Assembly (NCBI GenBank): GCA_015063165.1
Contig: SUSZ01000021.1
Location: 1-38,212, forward strand
Source of the DNA: Thermoplasmata archaeon
Lineage (GTDB): Archaea > Thermoplasmatota > Thermoplasmata > Methanomassiliicoccales > Methanomethylophilaceae
Direction of reading: 5' to 3'
DNA: 38,212 nt
Positions within the stretch are counted from its first letter, which is position 1; every line of letters begins with the position of its first letter. The translations under genes were made by a program, and so were the position numbers. Positions 18,726 to 31,689 of the stretch are shown piece by piece. The notes below the pieces were generated by a model. It was not told the origin of the DNA, made no database searches, and was given only the letters and a program-made list of their open reading frames with translations.

Positions 18726-19556
18726 ATGAAAGGCCTCTTGATGTCCAAGTTCTATCTCGACGAGATATTGGACGGTAAGAAATCCTTCGATGCTCGCCTG
18801 TATCCGGCTCCTGTACGCGGAACGATAGCTATCGTGGACTCGGGTACATTTCGTGTCTACGGCCTCGCAGAGCTCGTCTCCGTGCGGGAGATAAGCTACG
18901 AGGAGTTCGTGGAGTGGCATAGGGTTGGACCGTTCAAGGACTCGCCCATAGCCCCGTACCACGAGGGGAAGGTCTGTTACGCGTACGACCTGGAGAACGC
19001 TAGAAGGCTGGTCCTCCCGGTCAGATTGGAAAGGGAGGAGACCGCGAGGATGTGGGTGGACATCCCCGACAGGGTCTCCAGATCGTTCGGTTCCCAGAAG
19101 ACCCTGTTCCGATCAGTCCGTTATTATCTCCACTCTGCTGCCGCCGTTCTTCTTCTTGGTGACGCAGATCTTCTTGGACAGGCGCTCCTTGAACAGGTCG
19201 ACGTGCGAGATCACTCCGACCATCACATCGCCTTCGGAGAGGCTTTCCAGGACTGTTATGGCCTGTTCCAGCGACTCGCTGTCCAGAGAGCCGAACCCCT
19301 CGTCTATGAACAGGGTCTCGACCCTCAGGCCTCCTGCGGTGTACTGGACCATGTCCGAGAGTCCCAGCGCCAGCGACAGGGCGGCCTTGAACGATTCTCC
19401 GCCAGAGAGGGTCTTCACGCTTCTCTGTATCCCGGTGTAGTTGTCCATGACGTCTATGTCCAGGGCGGTCTGGCTCCTTCTGTCGCCTTCCTTTTTGCGG
19501 ATGAGCTCGTATCTGCCGCCGGACATGTTCGTGAGCCTCTTGTTGGCCAGCAGTAG
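18726..19556 (+). CDS. ASCH-domain protein with an anomalous 3' extension
   Basis: The first ~125 residues resemble a small ASCH domain, a PUA-like RNA-binding fold: an N-terminal KGLLMSKFYLDEILDGKKSF, the strand GTIAIVDSGTFRVYGLAELV, then a terminal VLPVRL...ARMWVDI. ASCH proteins of this size usually end there, near 19100. Here the frame stays open for a further 444 bases antisense to the end of sbcC and closes with TAG at 19554-19556, giving 276 residues. The extension resembles no protein and reads like a sbcC shadow. Either the natural stop was lost or the gene truly overlaps. The role of the ASCH part is unknown. Confidence 0.5.
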   Translation: MKGLLMSKFYLDEILDGKKSFDARLYPAPVRGTIAIVDSGTFRVYGLAELVSVREISYEEFVEWHRVGPFKDSPIAPYHEGKVCYAYDLENARRLVLPVRLEREETARMWVDIPDRVSRSFGSQKTLFRSVRYYLHSAAAVLLLGDADLLGQALLEQVDVRDHSDHHIAFGEAFQDCYGLFQRLAVQRAEPLVYEQGLDPQASCGVLDHVRESQRQRQGGLERFSAREGLHASLYPGVVVHDVYVQGGLAPSVAFLFADELVSAAGHVREPLVGQQ

Positions 19557-22175
19557 GATGCTGTCGAAGAATACGGTCTGGATGTACTGGTCGAACGGGA
19601 CCTTCGCCTCTCCCTGTACCTTTCCGCTCGCGGCGTCGGCCAGAAGCCTGAGCTCTTCTGCTTCTCCTCTGAGCTTCTCCCACCGAGGAATCCTCTCCCT
19701 CATCTTCACCTCGACATCGGTGTTGTGACTCAGCCTGTTGGATAAGGCGGTCCTTTTCTCGACGGATTCGTCGACAGCGGCTTTGGCATCTACGACCTCT
19801 TTTCTGGCCGCTTCGGCGTCGGGCTTCTCCTTTCCGTCCACCCTGGTTCTGAGGTCCTCCAGCAGGGCGTTGTTGGTTCTGACAGCGCCATCGTATCTGT
19901 CGATCTCCGACTTCAGTGCTCCGCTGTCTATCAGCAGGATGCCGTCCAGGTCAGTCTCGCTGATTCCGACGGACGCCAGCATCGCGACGACCTCTTCGGA
20001 CTTCGCCTCGAAGGTCTCCTTCTCCCTCCTTACGTTGGCCTCCTCGGATTCGATCGAGCTCTTCAGCGAGGCTTCCCTGTTGGTCGCTTCCTTCATCCTA
20101 TTCTCCACCTCGTCGATGAGCGCAGAGAGCTTCTCGGAATTCTCCTTAGTGGCGGCGATGTCAGCATTTATCGAATCCTTCTCCGCCCCTTCGCATGCGT
20201 CGATGGCCGCTCTCAGCCTCTCCGCAAGGGTGGCCTCCTTCGCCTTCGCGTCGGAGATCCTCCCTCCCAGGGATTCCAGGGACTTCTTTAGCTCCTCTAG
20301 TCTGGCCGAGGCTTTGTTGTCCTGCGCCCTGGCATCTTCAAGTCTCTTCTTGTCGGCCATCCTGGATTCCAGCTCCGATTCCAGCTCGGATGCTTCTCCA
20401 TTAAGGCTCGCGAGACGATCCGCGATCATCGTTTCGATAGCCTCGATGGAATCGCCGTATCCGGACAGGCTCTCGATCATGCTGTCGCGCTCGCCGGCGA
20501 TCCTGGTCAGATTTCCGTTGACGTCATCCCTCTTCTTTCTGGCGATCTCCACTTGGGATTCCATGCCCTTTATGGACTCCTCGGTGGGCACGTCTTCGGG
20601 AACGGTGGCGGGCGAGGGATGATCCGTGGATCCGCACACGGGACAGGGGGCGCCTGGGATCAGGCTCTTGGCGATTATGCCGGCCTGCGACAGGAGGAAC
20701 CTGTGGCTCATGTCCGCTCTCCGGATGTCCAGGTTGGTGAACTCGGATGACTTTCTGGCGAGCTCCTCCTTGACGCTCTCGATCTCCGCGCATCTGGATT
20801 TGATGTTCTCGAGCGTTCTGCTGTCCTTCTCCAGGCCCCCTAGGTCTTTCCTGATGCCATCCAGGCGGACTTTGCAGACGTCCGCTTCCGCGGCGGATTT
20901 CGCGAGCGCTTCGAGGGTGCTGGCGATTTCCTTTCTGGATTCTTCCAGCTCTTTCTGTTCGGCCTGCTGGGTGTTGCTGGCGGATTCAAGCTCCTCCAGC
21001 TCTTTCCTGCAGCCGTCTAGGTCGGAGCGGATGTTAGTGGCGTTGCAGCAGGCCTCCAGCTTCTTGTTAAGATCGTCCAGGCGGGTTCCGAGGTTCTTCA
21101 GCTCCTCTCTGCGTCCCGGCAGGGCCTCGTATTCGGGCCTGAGCCCTTCGAGGGCCGCATCGTTGTCCTTTTTCCTCTGTTCGAAAGCTTCGAGCCTCTT
21201 GGAGGCTTCCTATGCGGCCATCCTATGGGATTCGCGGTCCCTACGGACTGCGTCGATCGCAACGGACCTGCTGGCGAGGTCGAGGTCGGTCCTCTTCCTC
21301 TCCATCTGCTCCTTCTGCTCCTGGAGGGACTTCCATTTCTCGCTCTCCTCGTCCAGCTTGGAGAAGTCCTTCGCCAGGGCCTCGGCCTCGCCGTCCTTCT
21401 GGAGGGCTATGGCGTACGCCTTCTCGAGCTCCACGTGGGATTCTTCAAGGCTCTTGAGCTCGGCCTCGTCCCTCCTGTTGTACGATTCCAGCTTGGCGGC
21501 CATCTCTTCGAACGTCATCGAAGAAACGTCGTCCTCGGGGTCCCAGAAAGCTGATCTGGCGATCCAGTTCAGGTCGTTCTCGCTGTTGCTGTACTCCTCG
21601 TCCTTGTCCTTGCTCCTGCGTTTGAGCTCTTCGATCAGGAAAGTGAACCTCCCGGTCTTGAACAGCCTGCCGAGTATCTCGGAGCGTTCGGCGCTGTTCG
21701 AGTCCAGAAGCTTGACGAACTCCCCCTGTGCGATCATCGATATCTGCCCCCACTGCTCGGGGCCGATGCCGAGGATATCCGTGATCGCTTTGGTCACATC
21801 CGTGTTCTTGGTGCAGAGGCATTCGTCGCCCATGTACAGCTCGGACGAAGCCGACTTCTTGGATACCGTGCCGTTGCGGGTCGTGTATGTGTACGAGGGC
21901 TCCCTGTAGACGCTGTAGCTGATGCCGTCGTGGACGAAATCGAGGAGAACGTAGGGCTTCTTGTCGGTGAAGTCGCTCTTCAGCGAATCAACGCCTCTTC
22001 TGCTGCCGGTGGTCTCCCCGTACAGGGCATACGACATCGCATCGAATATCATGGTCTTCCCGGACCCGGTCTCCCCGGTCACCAGGAACAGGCCATGGTC
22101 CATCTCCTCGAACTCTATGACGGTCTTCTCGTCGTAAGGGCCGAACGCCTGCATCTCCAGTCTGATGGGCTTCAT
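19113..22175 (-). CDS. sbcC: SbcC/Rad50-type ATPase with an in-frame TAG (codon 322)
   Basis: Large subunit of the SbcCD (Rad50-Mre11) nuclease complex, which processes DNA ends and hairpins. The frame from ATG 22175 to TGA 19113 is 1021 codons and unbroken except for TAG at 21212-21210. With TAG read as an amino acid the product has 1020 residues, the usual SbcC length. The N-terminal half-ATPase (FGPYDEKT, Walker A GETGSGKT) lies before the TAG. After it come coiled coil, the zinc-hook CPVCG (C511, C514), more coiled coil, the signature LSGGES and Walker B LFIDEGFGSLD. Neither part alone would be a working ATPase. The motifs are bacterial SbcC-like rather than archaeal Rad50-like. The start overlaps the sbcD stop (ATGA). 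UAG as pyrrolysine is the favoured reading; a pseudogene or sequencing error is the alternative. Confidence 0.88.
21193..21212 (-). promoter_or_regulatory. in-frame TAG and downstream stem-loop in sbcC
   Basis: On the minus strand TAG (21212-21210) is followed after two bases by the perfect stem AGCCTC/GAGGCT (six pairs, loop CAA, 21207-21193). A stem directly behind a recoded UAG recalls the proposed PYLIS elements of methylamine methyltransferase mRNAs, although PYLIS is not strictly required for pyrrolysine insertion. The stem could also be a chance result of coding sequence. Confidence 0.5.
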
Positions 22176-23335
22176 AGCCTCCCTCCTTCGCCGGAGATTA
22201 TGTCGTCGATGGTCTCCCTCTGGTATACGGTGAGGTCGCGTCCGGTGTACTTGCTGTAGAACTCTTCGAAGAGGGCCTGCGGGGTCTTGTTGTTAATGAC
22301 GTCTATGGTCATCTCTCCCGAGTCGCTCCTCTTGTTGGCGACCTCGAACTGGATGCTCACGATGCGGTCGAACAGGAGTCTGAGCTGTTTCTCCGGCTCG
22401 AACACGTGCTCTGTAAGGACCACTCCGACGTACATGTCCTTCAGCTCCGGCCTCTCGGCCATCTGTTCGCGTATGGACTCCATGGTCCCCTTCACCCTCG
22501 CGACGTCTCTGAGTGGGACTATAGGGATACTATCGATCTCCACATGGTTCTTCTCATAGATGCTCACTATAGTGACACTCTTGTCGTCGTTGACCTCGGA
22601 GAGGGAGTACTTCAGCGGAGTGCCACAGTACCTAACGGTCTCCCTGCCGACCTTCTGGGCAGTGTGTAAGTGCCCCAACGCAACGTAATCGAAAGGATCC
22701 AGAAGGCTCGCCGAGATGCAGTCCAGCCCGCCGACGCAGGCGTGGGACGTCTCGGATTCGCACTGTTTGGGGAGGACGTCCGAGTTCAGGTAGAACTGGT
22801 GCGACACCAGGAGGTTCCTCGCACAGGGGTCCACCTTCGTCCTGTCCAGTATCAGCCGCATGGCCTCGTCAGGGCTTTCGATCTCCTCGTCGAAGTAAGG
22901 CCTCACCAGCGAGGGCTTGATGTACGGAAGCATGTAGATGTTCAGGTCGCCGAACCCGTCGTGGACGACTATGCGGTCCATGTCCCCTTTGAACGCTCCG
23001 GCGATGTGTATGTTCCTTTTCTTGAGGATGGCATCGCCGAAATCCAGCCTCCTGCCGGAGTCGTGGTTCCCTCCTATCATGTAAACAGGACAGCCTCTGG
23101 ACTCGACCTCGGCCAGGAAGTAGCTGAACATGGTGACGGCATCCTCGCGCGGAACGCTCTTGTCGTAGACGTCTCCGGCGATTATGAGGCCATCAGGATG
23201 CACTTTATCGATTATCGACAGAATCTGTCCCAGCATATCCTCCTGTTCCTCTATCAGAGGGAAGCCACGGAGGCTTTTTCCTAGATGCAGATCAGAAATA
23301 TGAAGAAGCCGAGTTGGCTGTGCCGATTCTCCCAT
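22172..23335 (-). CDS. sbcD: SbcD/Mre11-type exonuclease subunit
   Basis: A 387-residue metallophosphoesterase nuclease subunit that pairs with SbcC. Phosphoesterase motifs are in order: HISDLHLGKSL (residues ~10-20), AGDVYDKSVP, GGNHDSGRRL, SHQFYL, and GLDCI...ALGHLHTAQ. These supply the two-metal (Mn) site. The motif context (LHLGK...EEQEDML) resembles SbcD of Firmicutes more than archaeal Mre11. Its TGA overlaps the sbcC ATG. A TATA box at 23354-23363 gives a leaderless start at 23335. The promoter region is shared with a divergent HTH gene and contains inverted repeats. Confidence 0.92.
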   Translation of the reverse strand: MGESAQPTRLLHISDLHLGKSLRGFPLIEEQEDMLGQILSIIDKVHPDGLIIAGDVYDKSVPREDAVTMFSYFLAEVESRGCPVYMIGGNHDSGRRLDFGDAILKKRNIHIAGAFKGDMDRIVVHDGFGDLNIYMLPYIKPSLVRPYFDEEIESPDEAMRLILDRTKVDPCARNLLVSHQFYLNSDVLPKQCESETSHACVGGLDCISASLLDPFDYVALGHLHTAQKVGRETVRYCGTPLKYSLSEVNDDKSVTIVSIYEKNHVEIDSIPIVPLRDVARVKGTMESIREQMAERPELKDMYVGVVLTEHVFEPEKQLRLLFDRIVSIQFEVANKRSDSGEMTIDVINNKTPQALFEEFYSKYTGRDLTVYQRETIDDIISGEGGRL

Positions 23336-23446: not shown

Positions 23447-24001
23447 ATGGAATCCGGCCAAAGCCTGTTGGACACCCTGAAGAGGGCGTCCTCCATCTCC
23501 TACGTTTCATCGAAGCTAGGAGTCTCCAGGCCCACGCTCTACAGGTACGTGGATCTCTACGAATCCGGAGACAAGGAAAAAGTTCCTGAGGTTGCGAGGG
23601 AGTTCTTCATCTATTGCTGCAAGGACAATCTCAGCGAGGACGACGTCTCCAGGTATTTCCTTGTAAACAGGAGCGAGGATGCGAGCTGGGGCGAGGAGTC
23701 TGGAGGGAGCGCCTGCCTGATCGGCGGCGACCGCGTGATGATTATCGTCCGCAATCCCAAGAAGGACCGTGCCGTAGAGATTTCGACCGAGATATCTGGT
23801 GAGACTATAGTGATAGGTACTTACCATCTATCAGACGAGAAGAACTTCGTCACGATCGACGATCTCGTCCCAGGACATTCGTTCAAGTACAGGTTGGTAG
23901 GAACCGATGGGAAGAGGTCCAAGTGGGAGTCCTTCACGGTTGAATTTCACGTATCGGGCCCAGGTAGGAGAAATCGAGGCGATCTTCGCCGAACGCTTTG
24001 A
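23447..24001 (+). CDS. helix-turn-helix protein, divergent from sbcDC
   Basis: A 184-residue protein with an N-terminal HTH (about residues 10-40: RASSISYVSSKLGVSRPTLY, then RYVDLYE), of the kind found in transposon-related and Fis/resolvase-like regulators. A mixed alpha/beta region of no recognised family follows. The start has no Shine-Dalgarno; a TATA element 26 bp upstream implies a leaderless mRNA. The last 68 bases run antisense to the end of the helicase gene. Autoregulation and control of sbcDC are plausible from the operator-like repeats but not shown. Confidence 0.65.
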   Translation: MESGQSLLDTLKRASSISYVSSKLGVSRPTLYRYVDLYESGDKEKVPEVAREFFIYCCKDNLSEDDVSRYFLVNRSEDASWGEESGGSACLIGGDRVMIIVRNPKKDRAVEISTEISGETIVIGTYHLSDEKNFVTIDDLVPGHSFKYRLVGTDGKRSKWESFTVEFHVSGPGRRNRGDLRRTL

Positions 24002-26084
24002 CCAGGAGGTCCTCCGGGACGTACCTGTCGTATTTTCCGAATACCAGCCTGTCGTCGCCGATGAGGTCGTAGGCGAACCTCTGGCTCGAATAGCGCTCTA
24101 TGGTCTCCTGCAGCTCTCCCCAGTCCAGCTCCGTGAGGACGTCCACGTAGTAGGGCGGCCTTTCCAGGACCTTGTCGCATATCTGCCTCAGGACCCTGCA
24201 TAGGGTGTCGAATGCGGTGGTCCCGACCCAGGGGAATATCCTGAACCAGCCGTTTATCTCGACCACGCCTTCCAGCATGCCGCATTCCCTGGCGGCCTGT
24301 CTGCATCTGCGGAGCTCGTCGTGGGCGGATGCATCTAGGAAACTATAGTCTTCTTCGGATTCCAGGACCTCCCTCATGCGCTCCATGACCTTGTTGTGGG
24401 TTCCAGGGACCCCGGATTTCCAGAGGGTGTTGGCGGACCCCTCGGTCTCCTCCACGTCGATGCTCATGGCCTTGGGATCGGTCTTCACGACGGTCCAGAT
24501 CCTTCCTGCCAGCTGTATGAGCTCCCCTATGTCCGGCATCTCCTGGATGGAGCCGACCTGCTTGCCCTCGCTCTTGACCTCTATCTCCTTCTTCACGGTG
24601 AACACCGAGCAGAACGACCTGTCCGAGGACACCCTTTCGCCGTTATCCGTCAGCAGTAGCGTCCCATCCTCCATCTTCATCAGGAGACCGGAGGAGATCA
24701 TGTCCTTGACCAGAATGGCGTAGTCCTCCTTGGGGATGAAGCGGAACGGGTGCATGGACAGCACGTCGGATACCAGGCGGGAGAAGCGGGTCCCTGTCCC
24801 GCATCTGATGTACTCCATCGTCTGGTGGAACAGCAGCCCATACGGGAGTTTCGGGATCCTCACAGGCTCGGTCCATCCGTCGCGGAGGACCAGCGTCGAC
24901 ATCGCTATGCCCTTGATCAGGTCTATCGAGACCCCTTCTATGGAGGCCCACCATTCGGTCAGGTCCTCGCGGCAGAACATCCTCATGGTCTGAGCCCCTC
25001 CGCGCCTTCCTGAGCGTCCCATCCTCTGCACGAGGCTGGAGCAGGTGTACGGGGTGTCCACCTGGACCACGGCATCCAAGGAGCCGACGTCTATCCCCAG
25101 CTCAAGGGTGACCGTGGAGACTGTCACCGTCTTCCTGTTCCTGTCCTTCAGGTTGTCCTCCGCGGCCTTCCTCAGGTCCTTGGATATGCTTCCGTGATGT
25201 ACGTACACCACATCCTCGTCCTTCATCGCTTTGGCGATCTTCGACAGGGAGCGTCCGGTCCTCTCGGCTATGACCCTGCTGTTGGTGAAAACTATGCAGC
25301 TCTTGCCGCGGACCTCCTCGTAGAGGCGGCGGTAGTACCTGTTGGCGGCGACGACCCTCTCCTGATGGGTCTCGAAGCTGTCCATGGGGAAGCGATAGAA
25401 CAGGATTCCCAGGTCCCTCTCGCCGATCCCGGGGTCGGAGACAACCTCCGTCCTCCTTCCGGTGCCCGCGGAGAGCCATTCCGCCGCGGATTGGGTGTCC
25501 GCTATGGTCGCTGACAGGCCTATGCGCCTGGGCTCGCATCCGGCCAGCATCTCCAGCCTCTCCAGGCAGCAGAGGAGCTGCAACCCTCTGTCCGAGCCCA
25601 TGAAGGCGTGGACCTCGTCGATTATAACGAATCTCAGGTCCCCGAACAGCCTCTCCAGGTCCTCAGGGCGGGAGGCCACGATGTTCTGTAGGGACTCGGG
25701 GGTGATCTGGAGTATCCCGGAGGGCACGTCCAGCAGCTTCTTCTTGGACTCCGGGCCGATGTCCCCGTGCCATCCGGTGACCTCGATGTACGAGTCCTTC
25801 AGCATGGGCTCCAGCCTCTGGAACTGGTCGTCGATCAGGGCCTTCAGAGGCCCCACGTAAAGTGCCCCGATGCTCCTGGGAGGGTTGCTGTAGATGGATG
25901 AGACCGCCGGGAAGAGGGCGGCCTCGGTCTTCCCGCTGGAGGTCCCGGAGGATATCAGGAGATGGCTGTCCCTTCCGAAGAGGACATCGAACGCGCGCTC
26001 CTGGATGCCCCTGAAGCCTTCCCATCTGTTCTCATGGATGTACTCTCTGAGGAACCAGGGGAGGCTGTTGAACCTGTCCGTCAT
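23934..26084 (-). CDS. brxHI: BrxHI-like / Lhr-like superfamily II DEAD/DEAH helicase
   Basis: A 716-residue SF2 helicase. Motif I is SGTSSGKTEA (about residues 46-55), followed by the box IIDEVHAFM, motif III LSATIAD, the DNA-binding and strand motifs of domain 2 (TVTLELGIDVGSLDAVVQVD) and motif VI QRMGRSGRRGG. The C-terminal ~300 residues form an Lhr-like accessory region. It resembles the helicase BrxHI of type 2 BREX. Its ATG overlaps the TGA of the BrxD-like gene (ATGA), and it is the last of four same-strand genes. The start at 26084 is preferred because frame upstream is only a shadow of the ATPase gene. Expected role: ATP-driven remodelling of DNA, in a complex or pathway with BrxD. 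Confidence 0.85.
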   Translation of the reverse strand: MTDRFNSLPWFLREYIHENRWEGFRGIQERAFDVLFGRDSHLLISSGTSSGKTEAALFPAVSSIYSNPPRSIGALYVGPLKALIDDQFQRLEPMLKDSYIEVTGWHGDIGPESKKKLLDVPSGILQITPESLQNIVASRPEDLERLFGDLRFVIIDEVHAFMGSDRGLQLLCCLERLEMLAGCEPRRIGLSATIADTQSAAEWLSAGTGRRTEVVSDPGIGERDLGILFYRFPMDSFETHQERVVAANRYYRRLYEEVRGKSCIVFTNSRVIAERTGRSLSKIAKAMKDEDVVYVHHGSISKDLRKAAEDNLKDRNRKTVTVSTVTLELGIDVGSLDAVVQVDTPYTCSSLVQRMGRSGRRGGAQTMRMFCREDLTEWWASIEGVSIDLIKGIAMSTLVLRDGWTEPVRIPKLPYGLLFHQTMEYIRCGTGTRFSRLVSDVLSMHPFRFIPKEDYAILVKDMISSGLLMKMEDGTLLLTDNGERVSSDRSFCSVFTVKKEIEVKSEGKQVGSIQEMPDIGELIQLAGRIWTVVKTDPKAMSIDVEETEGSANTLWKSGVPGTHNKVMERMREVLESEEDYSFLDASAHDELRRCRQAARECGMLEGVVEINGWFRIFPWVGTTAFDTLCRVLRQICDKVLERPPYYVDVLTELDWGELQETIERYSSQRFAYDLIGDDRLVFGKYDRYVPEDLLVKAFGEDRLDFSYLGPIREIQP

Positions 26085-27364
26085 ATCTCGAGGTCCTCGA
26101 TGAGGTCGTCGTCGGGGTTCCTGTCGGCATCCACCGTCCTTCCGATGACGAGGTCCTCGAAGGTGGCGTCGGGGTTCTGATGTAGGGTGTCCAGCAGGCT
26201 GATCAGGTCCCTGGTGATCTCCCTGGGCGTGACCATCGACGAGGAGACGGACGAGAGCACGGTTCCGAGATATATCTGGAGCTTCTCGTCGTCCATGCCG
26301 GAGGTGTAGCCGTACCTCTGCTCGTGGAGGTCCCTTATGGTCCTCAGGAGGACGTAGATCTCCTCCTTGGTGAGGGGCCTGAGGTTGATGACCGGGCCGA
26401 GGTAGTTGTCGTACCCGTTCTCGTATTTGCCCTGGATGAGCCTGGATTTGAGGGCTTCGTAGCTGAAGAGCCCGCGGTTGGGGTCCTCGATGAACTCGGG
26501 GGTGCCGCAGACGTACATCGAAAGGTATGACGACTTGCCCTGCATGATGTCGTTGAACATCGTGAGCAGGCGCTCGTAGTTGTTGGACCTGGAAGCCCTG
26601 TTCTGCAGCTTGTACAGCACCACGGCCTCGTCCAGGAACACCACGAGTCCCTTGTACCCGAGGCCGACCACGAACTCCGCCCAGATCTTGATGAATCCGT
26701 ACCAGTTGGAGTCGTTGATCACGGAGTCGATGCCCAGCTTGGACCTGACGTCCCTCTTGAGTTCCATCTCTCCGCGGAGCCATCTGAGCGCGGGGATGTC
26801 CTCCACGCCGTCGCGGGAGTCCCTGTAGTAGCTCATGACGACCTTCAGGAAGTCGTTGTAGTACGGAAGGGTGCTGAGCCCGGAGACGGATTTCTTGAGC
26901 CTGGCCTCTATCTCTGCGTCGTTCGGATCCCTTCCGAGCTCCTTCCTGGCGGCTTCCTCGGCCGAGTCTATCCACTCCTGGAGGAGGGGCTCCAGCGCTC
27001 CGTTGTCCGGACGGGTGCGTATGGACATGTTCTTGACCAGCTCGACGTAGGTGTTCAGGCCTTCTTTCCTGGATCCCGTGAGCCTGCGGTCTATGGAGAG
27101 ATCGGCATCCATCACGACGAACCCCTTGTCCATCGCGTAGTTGCGGATCATCTGGATCATGAAGCTCTTACCGTTACCGAAGCGTCCCGAGATGAATCTG
27201 AAAGCGCCGCCTCCTGCAGCGGTGTCGTCGAGGTCGCGTACGAAGGTCTCCGTCTCCTTCCTCCTTCCTACCGCTATGTATTCCAGTCCACGGCGTGGCA
27301 CCACGCCGGATGACAGTGCGTTCATCATCGTGATGAGGGTCCTCTTCGGTACGTTGGATGTCAT
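26081..27364 (-). CDS. brxD: BrxD-like P-loop ATPase (DUF2791 family)
   Basis: A 427-residue ATPase of the BrxC/BrxD (DUF2791) family. The N-terminal signature ALSSGVVPRRGLEYIAVGR is typical, Walker A is GRFGNGKS (60-67), and the Walker B region is GLVVFLDEAVVLYK. Family members are ORC/AAA-like and work with BrxHI in type 2 BREX and in related gene sets. A GGAGGAG ribosome site lies directly before the ATG, 26 bases after the second TerB gene, and the stop overlaps the helicase start. Because BREX methylase, PglZ and BrxL are absent nearby, BREX activity itself should not be assumed. Confidence 0.87.
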   Translation of the reverse strand: MTSNVPKRTLITMMNALSSGVVPRRGLEYIAVGRRKETETFVRDLDDTAAGGGAFRFISGRFGNGKSFMIQMIRNYAMDKGFVVMDADLSIDRRLTGSRKEGLNTYVELVKNMSIRTRPDNGALEPLLQEWIDSAEEAARKELGRDPNDAEIEARLKKSVSGLSTLPYYNDFLKVVMSYYRDSRDGVEDIPALRWLRGEMELKRDVRSKLGIDSVINDSNWYGFIKIWAEFVVGLGYKGLVVFLDEAVVLYKLQNRASRSNNYERLLTMFNDIMQGKSSYLSMYVCGTPEFIEDPNRGLFSYEALKSRLIQGKYENGYDNYLGPVINLRPLTKEEIYVLLRTIRDLHEQRYGYTSGMDDEKLQIYLGTVLSSVSSSMVTPREITRDLISLLDTLHQNPDATFEDLVIGRTVDADRNPDDDLIEDLEI

Positions 27365-27390
27365 CTCTCCTCCATTGCTCCTTTCATATT

Positions 27391-29538
27391 TTATTCGTTT
27401 TCCAAGTAGTTTTTCGTGATCCTTTCGATCTGCTCGGAGTAATCCTCCACAGCCTGACCGTCCTCGACGACTATGTCGCCCACCGTGTCCATGGCGGCCT
27501 CGTTCACGGCCTTCTCCTTCCTCCTGTCGGCGCGGGTCCCCTTCAGGGATCCATGCAGGTATCCCAAGAGCTCCCGGTCCAGCCTGGAGGCGAGCTCCTC
27601 CCAGGGGTTGTCGTGACGGGTCTTCTCCTGCACGGGCTCTTCGATCGTCGGCGTCGGCTCCTCGTCGGCTCCGGAGTACATCAGGCCGGTGACAGCATCC
27701 AGGTCCTCGACGGCCGAGTTGACGGCGTCCATGTCCAGCTTCACGTCCTTCGACATGGACCTGATCCTCGCGACCCTCTTCTTCTCCATGGTCTTCAGGG
27801 AGACCTCGCGGACGATGTCGCGGTTCCTGGTGCCGAACCCGAACGGGCAGCGAGGGCTCTCTTCTCCGTTCTGGACCGAGCAGACTATGGTGCCGACGTT
27901 CACCAGGAACTTGGTGACGCTCCCTAGGTCAGAGAAGGTGTCCATCTGCATCGATATGGGCATGCAGGCGCATTCCTCGAAGATCCTGACGTTCGATGTG
28001 GACAGCGAGGCGTTGAACATCTCCGCCAGGGTGTTGTTGTGATAGCGGTACAGCATCGCTACGGAGGCGTTCACGAGGTCCATGTCGGCGTCCCCCACGC
28101 TCTGGTCCAGGCGTTTCAGCATGCCGTCGTTCAGGCATCCGGGCGGGTCGGATGCCAGCGCGCGGACCAGGAACGCTCCCAGGCGTATGCTGTCGCAGAA
28201 GAGCTCGGACATGTCCGCATCGATGCCCTTCAGGAGGCACCAGTCCGCCATCACAGACTCGACCCTGACGCGGACCTGTCCCATGGAAGCCTTCCTGCAG
28301 GCTCTAAGAGCCTCCAGAGCAGATTCCGGGTCCAGGGTATCGTCGTGGATGATCTCGTTGACCAGGAGCCACATGGCCCCCTCCGAGACCTCAGGCCTCT
28401 CCCCTTTCAGGACGGATTCCTTCCACGACTGGTAGTACGCGAACTCGTCGAGGGTCATCTTCGAGTAGCACGGGCGAGGTTTGTCCATGCGCACCGATGC
28501 TGGGGCGAACGGCATGTAGATGCCCCCGTAGTCCCTCATCCTCGTCCTGAAGCGGTAGCTCGGCCAGGTCCCATCCTTGGTGTTGTTCAGGATCATCTCC
28601 TCGTACGTTACGGCCAGATGGTTCATGACGGCGATGGGCGACTCCAGCTTCGCATAGGGGGTGGTGATCTCATCGAGCCTGCCCTCCTTCCACGCGGTGA
28701 TGCATTTCTCCAGCGTCCCCTGGTATTTCCTGAGGTTCGCCGGAAGGTTCTCATCCCTTCCCGCCAGCCTGAGGATGCAGGTCTTCTGGAGGTTCTTCAC
28801 CAGCTCGACGAATGGCTCCGACCTCTTCAGATCCCGGCATCTCAGGTTGAGCGGAGCTATCAGCCTGTCGAACATAGCATCCCTGAAAGGCATCTCGATC
28901 AGGACGTCCATCGGGCGGCTGCAGAGCTCCAGGATGCCCCTCCCGACGTACATCCTGCCTATCTCGTGGAGGGCCGCGCTCACTATGACGGCGGCGGGCT
29001 CGGCGTATCTGTCGATTGTCTTGCCCTTGAATCCTGTTATGAGCCTGACATCCCTCGCTGAGAGGGGAACGAACCTGTCGGATGACAGGGCCCTGCACAT
29101 CCTGACCATCCTGTAGGACCTGTCCAGGCTCTCGGTGTCCCTTATCTCGAGGCCGTGCATGGCCTCGAAGTAGCAGCAGGCCTGGTCCAGCATGGCGTCC
29201 ACGCTCTCGTTCTGCCCCCTGTACGCGTCGCGCATCCTCAGAAGGCATTCGTGGTTCTCTATCGGGTCGTCGTCTACCACCAGCAGCTCGATCATGTGAA
29301 GCCAGATGTATCCGGCGTCGGTGTCGAGGCACACGCCCTCGTACAGGCTGCGCCTCCAGTAGAAGAAGTAGCGGAGGCGTTTCCAGACGATGTCCTTATG
29401 CCACGGGTGGAGCAGGCGGCTGGCCATGTACTCGCATTCCTCGCCGTCGAACGTCCAGTACGCTCTGATGCTATCGACGGATGTCGTCGTGGCGCGGTCC
29501 CTCCTGAAGCCCTCGTCGGGGAGTATCCTTCCGGTCAT
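27391..29538 (-). CDS. TerB-N/TerB-C domain protein, second copy
   Basis: A 715-residue protein. The N-terminal TerB-N region (about residues 40-130) has the motif YFFYWRRSLYEG followed by LDTDAGYIWLHMIELL, the aromatic-WR plus acidic-GYIWL pattern of TerB-N. The C-terminal ~120 residues are TerB-C-like and end with the signature AAMDTVGDIVVEDG near 682-695. The middle is helical and unassigned. TerB-related domains occur in Ter stress-response systems and in predicted DNA-processing operons with helicases. The ATG overlaps the TGA of the first TerB gene. It is paralogous to that gene at both ends. The stop is TAA. No signal peptide or membrane helix is seen. Confidence 0.75.
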   Translation of the reverse strand: MTGRILPDEGFRRDRATTTSVDSIRAYWTFDGEECEYMASRLLHPWHKDIVWKRLRYFFYWRRSLYEGVCLDTDAGYIWLHMIELLVVDDDPIENHECLLRMRDAYRGQNESVDAMLDQACCYFEAMHGLEIRDTESLDRSYRMVRMCRALSSDRFVPLSARDVRLITGFKGKTIDRYAEPAAVIVSAALHEIGRMYVGRGILELCSRPMDVLIEMPFRDAMFDRLIAPLNLRCRDLKRSEPFVELVKNLQKTCILRLAGRDENLPANLRKYQGTLEKCITAWKEGRLDEITTPYAKLESPIAVMNHLAVTYEEMILNNTKDGTWPSYRFRTRMRDYGGIYMPFAPASVRMDKPRPCYSKMTLDEFAYYQSWKESVLKGERPEVSEGAMWLLVNEIIHDDTLDPESALEALRACRKASMGQVRVRVESVMADWCLLKGIDADMSELFCDSIRLGAFLVRALASDPPGCLNDGMLKRLDQSVGDADMDLVNASVAMLYRYHNNTLAEMFNASLSTSNVRIFEECACMPISMQMDTFSDLGSVTKFLVNVGTIVCSVQNGEESPRCPFGFGTRNRDIVREVSLKTMEKKRVARIRSMSKDVKLDMDAVNSAVEDLDAVTGLMYSGADEEPTPTIEEPVQEKTRHDNPWEELASRLDRELLGYLHGSLKGTRADRRKEKAVNEAAMDTVGDIVVEDGQAVEDYSEQIERITKNYLENE

Positions 29539-31619
29539 TCCGGACCCCCTACGGCTCTCCGGACGTCCTCCATGTAGTCCTCGATGACCACTCCGTCCTG
29601 GACCACCACGTCCCCGACGGTGTCCATCGCCAGGGAGTTGATCGCCTTCTCGGCCTTGAAGTCGGACCGGCAGCCCTCGCAGGCTCTGGAGAGGTATTCC
29701 TTCTGGTCGTCGTCCAGCCCTTCGGAGAACGCCACCCAGGGATCCATGGGAGCCTCTGCGACCTCCTCTTCCTCTTCGGCCGTCTCCTCCTCTTCCTCCA
29801 CCTGCATCATGCTGGTGACGTCCTTGAGGTCGGATTCGGCCTGGTTGATGGCGTCCTTGTTGAGATTGACTTTCATCGGGCCCTTGTCCCACGACTTCCT
29901 GTCGGCGACGCTTCCCGTCAGCAGGAACTCCACGAGCTTCTCCTCGCGGATGCCGAAGACCTCTATCCCGACTCTCGGTAGGCCGGACGAGATCCTCCTG
30001 GACTCCTCCACGATGTATGTGGCCAGCTCGGAGAACGTCGACCTCATGTCGGGGTCTCCGGCGAAGTCCGTGAACTGTATCTTGGCCACGAGGTCCTCGC
30101 GGTCCGAGCGGTAGTACGCCAGGCCCTCGTACAGCTTCCTCGTGTGGATCGATTTCTTACAGAGAGCTACCGCGTCCTTCTTCTTGGCCCTTAGGAGCTC
30201 GGAGCTGGCGTTCATCAGGGTCCTGCGCATGGCTTCGGCCATCGTCGGGTCGAAGAAGTCGTCGGTGCTGGTCCCGAGAAGCCCTGCTATGCGCAGAAGC
30301 ACGTCCTTGTCCGGCTTGGCGTCCATGCATCCGCTCAGGTACTGGCCCATGACCATCCCTGCCTCGTCGTCGCTGTTCGCCAGGGAGGAGTCGGGGATGT
30401 GGATCTTGTTCTTCAGGACGAAGTCCATGCAGGTCTTCCTGATCAGGGCGGAGGCTATGCTGTCGCTATACGCGCGATGCATAGACATCAAGCGCTTGAG
30501 GATCGTCGTATGGTCCTCGGTGGAGTTCACCAGCCCGCACAGGCGCATCCAGATGTATCCGGTGTCGGTGTCGTGAAGCTTCCCGGCGTCGGCTTCGGAG
30601 GACCATCTCGCATAGAATGCCTTTTGCTTGTCGGAGAGCTTCCTGTAGTCCGGGCAGCTGCTGTCCGATCCGATGAAGTCGCCCAAGGGGCCTTCGGGGC
30701 CGCGTACGACGACGCTGTCCGTCCCTCTCCTGCCGGTTGGGGGCTCTTCTCCGAACAGATCGGTGCCCATGTCCATCAGGTCGACATCCCTCTTCGACAC
30801 AGGGACGCGGATGGAGCCGTTCTTGGTTCTCTTCACGACACTGCGTCTCTCGACGTTCTCATCCATCCTCTCGCGGAAGGACCTGGAAGGGGCGCCTTCG
30901 CCTGTGATGTGGGAGCAGATGTCCTCCAGAAGATGGAACAGATCGTCGGAGTACACGTCGTAGGTGACCATGTACATGGAAGACTCGAACCTGACATGAT
31001 TGGGGAACAGCACCCTTATGGACGTCTCGGTCCCGAGGAGGTATTCGTCCGTTCCTACGGATTCCAGGAGCCTCACGAACTCGCTCAGGCCATCGGGGGT
31101 ACCGGACAGACTGTCGGCCTTCCCGTCGCCTATGAGGGCTCTCAGGCGGCTCCTGTCGATGCATGAAGGGTCCCACAGGGTCTCCGATATCAGGATGCCC
31201 CTGGCGACATCGTCCTTTCCGTAGTCCGCAGGAGGGACCCGCAGGCCGTTCGCGATGCAGACGTCGGCGGCGACCCTGTCCAGATGCTCAGGGAACACGT
31301 CTATATCCTCCGCGTGGTCCTTCAGCATGGCGATTTCGCGAAGAGCCTCCTCCGGCTCGGACATGTTGATGATCTCGCACAGGCGGAGCCACACGTAGCC
31401 CCTGTCGGACTGCAGAAGCCTCCCCTCGGCCAGGTTCTTCCTCCACCAGAGGTAGTAGTTGAGCTGTGGCTTCTCAAGAAGGGAATAGTCCGGAGTCAGC
31501 AGGTCGCAGGGCACGAAAGCGCATTCGATCCCGGGGTAGCTCTGGTACCACCTCATCATGGATTCGAACTCGTCGCTGGGGTCGCATCTTCTGTAGCGCT
31601 TGCGCGGTGATTCCGCCAT
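29535..31619 (-). CDS. TerB-N/TerB-C domain protein, first gene of the operon
   Basis: A 694-residue protein (710 if ATG 31667 is used). Two TerB-N-like units are visible: YYLWWRKNLAEG then SDRGYVWLRLCEIIN (about residues 50-86), and FYARWSSEADAGKLHDTDTG then YIWMRLCGLVN (about 335-365). An acidic linker (about 605-624) leads to a TerB-C end with AMDTVGDVVVQDG, nearly the same as in its neighbour. ATG 31619 is preferred because a TATA-like CATATC sits 26 bp upstream; 31667 remains possible. It follows htpG on the same strand, beyond that gene's terminator, so it probably begins the four-gene operon. Confidence 0.75.
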   Translation of the reverse strand: MAESPRKRYRRCDPSDEFESMMRWYQSYPGIECAFVPCDLLTPDYSLLEKPQLNYYLWWRKNLAEGRLLQSDRGYVWLRLCEIINMSEPEEALREIAMLKDHAEDIDVFPEHLDRVAADVCIANGLRVPPADYGKDDVARGILISETLWDPSCIDRSRLRALIGDGKADSLSGTPDGLSEFVRLLESVGTDEYLLGTETSIRVLFPNHVRFESSMYMVTYDVYSDDLFHLLEDICSHITGEGAPSRSFRERMDENVERRSVVKRTKNGSIRVPVSKRDVDLMDMGTDLFGEEPPTGRRGTDSVVVRGPEGPLGDFIGSDSSCPDYRKLSDKQKAFYARWSSEADAGKLHDTDTGYIWMRLCGLVNSTEDHTTILKRLMSMHRAYSDSIASALIRKTCMDFVLKNKIHIPDSSLANSDDEAGMVMGQYLSGCMDAKPDKDVLLRIAGLLGTSTDDFFDPTMAEAMRRTLMNASSELLRAKKKDAVALCKKSIHTRKLYEGLAYYRSDREDLVAKIQFTDFAGDPDMRSTFSELATYIVEESRRISSGLPRVGIEVFGIREEKLVEFLLTGSVADRKSWDKGPMKVNLNKDAINQAESDLKDVTSMMQVEEEEETAEEEEEVAEAPMDPWVAFSEGLDDDQKEYLSRACEGCRSDFKAEKAINSLAMDTVGDVVVQDGVVIEDYMEDVRRAVGGPE

Positions 31620-31689
31620 CCCCAGGGTATGCACGTTCTGACGGATATGTGTTCCCACTGGCGGCATGTCGGCGTTCTGATAATGGAAA

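Follow-up and report, generated by a model that had tools for sequence, protein, structure and literature searches.

An in-frame TAG at codon 322 of sbcC, in the genome of a Thermoplasmata archaeon of the family Methanomethylophilaceae, is very probably a sense codon that is translated as pyrrolysine (Pyl). The gene lies in a contig stretch of 38,212 nucleotides (the window). A first-pass annotation, made from the letters of the window, had already proposed a probable pyrrolysine codon at this site, and the proposal is borne out by the pyrrolysine genes found on another contig (C34) of the same genome and by comparisons within the clade that point to TAG as a sense codon. That annotation also implied that sbcC was a special case, which it is not: TAG also interrupts the genes for SMC, citrate synthase and other proteins of this genome. 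The in-frame TAG of sbcC is real but not unusual here, being one of dozens of such genes, core genes included.

The sbcC frame runs on the minus strand from an ATG at 22175 to a TGA at 19113 and comprises 321 codons, the TAG, a further 698 codons and the TGA, giving a translation of 1020 residues that is free of frameshifts and of any second internal stop (Table 1). The earlier description of a single TAG in an unshifted frame was exact on retranslation. Residues 1-1000 of the read-through protein match the NCBIfam family sbcc_Staph (NF041751; E=2.6e-112), and each half, searched singly, matches its own portion of that family only. ABC ATPase lobes with Walker A, signature and Walker B motifs are found at the two ends, and between them an alignment and an AlphaFold model indicate a long coiled coil with the CPVC hook between long helices. 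In an alignment of the full frame with homologues (17 sequences), as the first-pass annotation had advised, every catalytic motif is intact and conserved, as is the zinc hook, invariant motifs lie both 5′ and 3′ of the TAG, and the Q-loop glutamine (residue 150) and H991 are also present. Pfam AAA_23 and SbcC_Walker_B both score above cutoff, although the protein falls below the curated NCBIfam cutoffs (TIGR00618, 274.9 bits against a cutoff of 478.5; NF041751, 376.6 bits). The homologue in the nearest sampled relative (G026) is full-length, uninterrupted and 60% identical. As judged from its sequence, the frame in its entirety encodes a single SbcC-type ATPase, of a divergent kind.

Table 1. 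Features of the sbcC region (window coordinates) and of other TAG-containing genes (locus or genome and contig coordinates). G000 is the genome under study; other G numbers are genomes of the same genus.
Feature	Position	Strand	Evidence or remark
sbcC 5′ part, from the ATG through the TAG; encodes residues 1-321, with the N-terminal ATPase lobe and the first portion of the coiled coil	21210..22175	-	AAA_23 PF13476, E=1e-20
In-frame TAG at codon 322, probably read as pyrrolysine	21210..21212	-	aligned codon GAA in G026, GAC in G025, GAA in G001
166 codons 3′ of TAG without ATG, GTG or TTG, coding in frame	20712..21209	-	log-odds +69.8; 36% identity to G026
sbcC 3′ part, residues 323-1020 and TGA (remaining coiled coil, zinc hook, signature, Walker B)	19113..21209	-	SbcC_Walker_B PF13558, E=1.5e-10; no lineage acceleration
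Walker A GETGSGKT, SbcC residues 34-41	22053..22076	-	translation and alignment
Zinc hook CPVC, SbcC residues 511-514	20634..20645	-	invariant in 17 sequences
ABC signature LSGGES, SbcC residues 923-928	19392..19409	-	translation and alignment
Walker B LFIDEG, SbcC residues 955-960	19296..19313	-	translation and alignment
sbcD (Mre11-type nuclease), 4-base overlap with sbcC start	22172..23335	-	Metallophos E=1.1e-11; SbcD_C E=3.1e-8; TIGR00619 141 bits, above cutoff
SngC	23934-26084	-	PADLOC
SngB	26081-27364	-	PADLOC
SngA-like, two genes	27391-29538; 29535-31634	-	PADLOC
SMC with in-frame TAG at about codon 865	L064:4446-8057 (G000 contig C46)	-	
Citrate synthase with in-frame TAG	L077:5959-7320 (G000 contig C24)	-	
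DNA polymerase D large subunit with TAG	G001:C10:79814-83161		
DNA polymerase D large subunit with TAG	G002:C209:2455-5802		
DNA polymerase D large subunit with TAG	G011:C103:1377-4733		

Standard ORF finding yields two pieces from this frame (22175-21210 and 20711-19113), just as the first-pass annotation had expected of a gene that would be annotated as two. These pieces would correspond to two real products if translation stopped at the TAG and began again internally at the ATG at 20711, which has a GGAG about 7 bases upstream. We regard such a split SbcC as hardly conceivable. The 166 start-free codons that precede this ATG belong to the coiled-coil arm and carry a coding signal, which is in fact the highest among the 639 predicted gene ends in our genome sample (see below), and sbcC is one frame in 16 full-length relatives, except that G009 has a TAG at a different position.

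The genome is equipped to decode UAG as pyrrolysine. Profile search identified pylS on contig C34 (255 bits, E=4.4e-76, above cutoff); a tRNA-Pyl gene with a CTA anticodon adjoins it, and pylB, pylC and pylD lie directly downstream, all above curated NCBIfam cutoffs (profile matches TIGR03910, 431.5 bits; TIGR03909, 311.6 bits; TIGR03911, 203.2 bits). The genes that the first-pass annotation had called for, pylT, pylS and pylBCD, are therefore all present. The same genome has two mtmB genes with one in-frame TAG apiece, and matches to the PYLIS families of mtbB and mttB. A PylS-family match occurs in 31 of 31 genomes of the genus, above the curated cutoff in 27 of them. The PylS of this genome is the short single-domain form, for which the closest solved PylS chains have 273-276 residues (8ifj, 7r6o), and the genome can probably be placed near the gut Methanomassiliicoccales. 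At its edge, contig C34 also shows a partial group II intron match (RF02012, 43 bits; L044:1-71, minus strand). UAG322 might alternatively be read by near-cognate tRNAs that insert a standard amino acid, which seems exceedingly improbable to us given that the cognate tRNA-Pyl(CUA) and PylS are encoded and that no second tRNA with a CTA anticodon occurs among the 14 tRNAs of the genome sample.

That sample consists of stretches totalling 729 kb (32% of the genome), in which we compared what follows each of the three stop codons. Coding potential was scored with an iteratively trained codon model, which replaced an earlier model built from the longest ORFs that separated coding from non-coding sequence poorly, and we asked how often a stop is followed by a frame that lacks start codons for at least 20 codons yet is still coding. 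The 639 predicted gene ends comprise 535 TGA, 68 TAA and 36 TAG. Start-free coding stretches of this kind follow 10 of the 36 TAG codons, but none of the 603 TAA and TGA codons (Fisher's exact test, 8.7e-14), and the stretch in sbcC, at 166 codons, is by far the longest after any TAG in the sample. Coding sequence continues immediately beyond about 20 of the 36 TAG ends. The remaining TAG ends, about 2% of all predicted ends, resemble true stops, several having a further stop a few codons on. By this measure TAG appears to behave as a sense codon through most of the genome and only rarely as an ordinary stop, and rough extrapolation by proportion suggests that the whole genome may hold about 50 TAG-containing genes. 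Reading through TAG also restores a complete SMC of 1203 residues, with both ATPase halves and the hinge, a complete citrate synthase, a PhzF-like protein, a nitroreductase and Sel1-repeat proteins. One frame of about 944 residues on contig C17 (L055:4981-7815, minus strand) contains two in-frame TAG codons and has no Pfam match.

The restriction to TAG argues against pseudogenes and sequencing errors in general, since both would affect TAA and TGA as well. A one-base sequencing or assembly error at the sbcC TAG could in principle be suspected, as the genome is a single draft consensus sequence, but it is barely credible: errors would show no preference for TAG, and in-frame TAG recurs in independent genomes and genes. 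It is also very unlikely that sbcC is a young pseudogene, in which a recent nonsense mutation has left the 3′ half as yet undecayed. The TAG at codon 322 is indeed private to this genome, being shared by no relative, and sbcC is dispensable in the genus, both of which would suit this explanation. However, pseudogenes predict interruptions by TAA and TGA too, the genome has the means to decode UAG, and the 3′ half of the gene is not evolving faster than in G026. Its identity to the G025 homologue is 42.5% (43.6% for G026's own 3′ half) and to the G001 homologue 40.5% (39.8% for G026's own), and in the C-terminal ATPase lobe dN is 0.07 and dS 0.61 relative to G026. The first-pass annotation had named decay of the downstream half as evidence that would count against pyrrolysine; these comparisons point to no decay, that is, to no relaxed constraint on the 3′ half relative to G026.

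Reading of UAG322 as pyrrolysine would proceed as follows. PylB, PylC and PylD would synthesize pyrrolysine from lysine, PylS would charge tRNA-Pyl(CUA) with it, and the ribosome would decode UAG322 in competition with release factor. The product would be a 1020-residue SbcC in which a helix of the coiled coil's ascending arm carries Pyl322, and some truncated SbcC of 321 residues would probably also be made. The codons aligned with the TAG in the three relatives of Table 1 specify acidic residues, other relatives have assorted residues there, and UAG322 was most likely derived by drift from a Glu codon, a mutation that constant decoding of UAG would make tolerable. The sequences themselves show the genes, the intact frame, the read-through signature peculiar to TAG in genome and genus, and the TAG kept in citrate synthase; we infer that Pyl rather than another residue is inserted at codon 322, and likewise the efficiency and the neutrality of its insertion.

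The position of the codon suits a tolerated change. AlphaFold predicts, with moderate confidence, that residue 322 lies some 190 residues N-terminal of the hook, in a long helix (residues 305-350) that forms part of the coiled-coil arm; the model of the whole protein has a pTM of 0.41, and a Foldseek search with that model gives large rmsd values and is uninformative for the long coil, although the ATPase head locally matches E. coli SbcCD. No RNA structure beyond that of shuffled sequences was found 3′ of the sbcC TAG (z=-0.07), nor after the TAG of mtmB in the same genome (z=-0.09). Because the site is variable and lies in a predicted coiled coil, Pyl322 looks tolerated rather than regulatory.

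The genes around sbcC nonetheless raise the question of a regulatory role. The sbcD and sbcC genes overlap and probably form one operon. Upstream of sbcD, PADLOC reports matches to SngC (E=3e-198), SngB (E=7e-144) and, twice, SngA (E=5e-21 and 7e-24), so that adjacent components of a Shango-like system (23934-31634, minus strand) stand beside sbcDC (19113-23335). The gene order SngA-SngB-SngC-SbcD-SbcC is also found in G026, G025 and G001. A SngB match occurs in 31 of 31 genomes of the genus, and a search of 29 other relatives gave none. Within the genus, however, SngB is frequently apart from sbcC, so the linkage between Shango and sbcC is partial. In this genome, sbcDC may serve a putative defence role besides repair. 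UAG322 might then be a selected read-through switch, by which SbcC of full length, together with the Shango-like defence genes linked to it, follows the supply of pyrrolysine. A product ratio that depends on supply is mechanistically possible, and if such a switch existed, full-length SbcC and the defence-like Shango-SbcDC cassette would be available only when pyrrolysine is plentiful. We consider it highly improbable, as codon 322 is variable and its TAG unconserved, TAG codons are scattered among unrelated genes, and RNA structure downstream is lacking.

Nor does repair as such appear to hang on this codon. The first-pass annotation had tied repair capacity to pyrrolysine supply, which was an overstatement: an sbcC match is lacking in 12 of the 31 genomes of the genus, several of them 98-99% complete, and the genome under study has a second, TAG-free Mre11/Rad50-like pair on contig C24. 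(Another ATPase, on contig C46, was considered as a possible intact Rad50 and rejected, as it is the SMC protein, itself interrupted by TAG.) Judging from these gene contents, sbcC is accessory in the genus. A selected dependence on Pyl is unsupported because the site of TAG322 is variable and unconserved, and any dependence on Pyl would be better sought in SMC and citrate synthase than in sbcC.

In full-length homologues of SbcC, SMC, DNA polymerase D and citrate synthase across the genus, the only internal stop codon is TAG. Two SbcC genes have one, at codon 322 in G000 and at a different site, codon 709, in G009. Two SMC genes, those of G000 and G016, are also interrupted at different sites, and the G016 site is occupied mostly by Tyr or Phe codons in other genomes. 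TGA codons that seemed to lie inside the SMC genes of G002, G014 and G029 are natural gene ends. The large subunit of DNA polymerase D has one internal TAG in three genomes (Table 1, positions as reported by the search). In citrate synthase, five species or more (G000, G026, G025, G029 and G006) have the TAG at the identical codon, with pairwise dS of about 0.4-2.1 among the carriers; elsewhere in the genus the codon is AGG, AAG, GAG or AAC (R, K, E or N). For so central an enzyme, the best explanation of a stop codon that survives this much divergence is that UAG is stably decoded. Citrate synthase, the strongest case in the genus, is a strong candidate for a central enzyme whose pyrrolysine has been stably inherited.

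In the methylamine methyltransferases MtmB, MtbB and MttB, pyrrolysine is catalytic. These genes are present here and would draw on the same Pyl machinery as sbcC, but the Pyl of SbcC would lie on a predicted coiled coil, where a catalytic role is unexpected. A report of 2025 is said to describe an archaeal genetic code in which all TAG codons are read as pyrrolysine; it resembles our case in the proteome-wide equation of TAG with Pyl in archaea, and may already list these genes. A tRNA-His guanylyltransferase, reportedly from Methanosarcina, is likewise encoded by a non-methyltransferase gene with an in-frame TAG, there a single gene in another order. The title of the study describing pyrrolysine in that enzyme credits neutral evolution (Heinemann et al. 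2009, cited in PMC4153887). ‘Ca. Methanomethylophilus alvus’ has 16 amber-containing genes besides those for methyltransferases, among them Cas1 and MtxX, whose homologues lack the TAG, and TAG makes up 1.6% of its stops (Borrel et al. 2014, PMC4153887). Like that organism, the present one is a methanogen with pylTSBCD, in which TAG is rare as a stop (about 2% in our sample) and occurs in assorted conserved genes. It differs in the genes concerned (SbcC, SMC and citrate synthase, with DNA polymerase D in relatives), in the larger number of TAG genes per genome that the sample implies, and in the TAG at the same citrate synthase codon across species. Amber codons outside methyltransferases were thus already known in the Methanomassiliicoccales (PMC4153887), and sbcC is a further case. 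Borrel et al. (2014, PMC4153887) had also proposed that amber codons in such genes could make Pyl decoding essential.

Taken alone, the sbcC case adds little, and the citrate synthase TAG of five species is the stronger test object. For the genus as a whole, gene callers that use the standard code will break up or cut short the genes for SbcC, SMC, citrate synthase and DNA polymerase D, and annotation of pathways and defence systems in these methanogens should take TAG as sense. The genus may also be a natural setting in which to ask whether pyrrolysine supply can limit growth through core proteins, beyond the use of methylamines.
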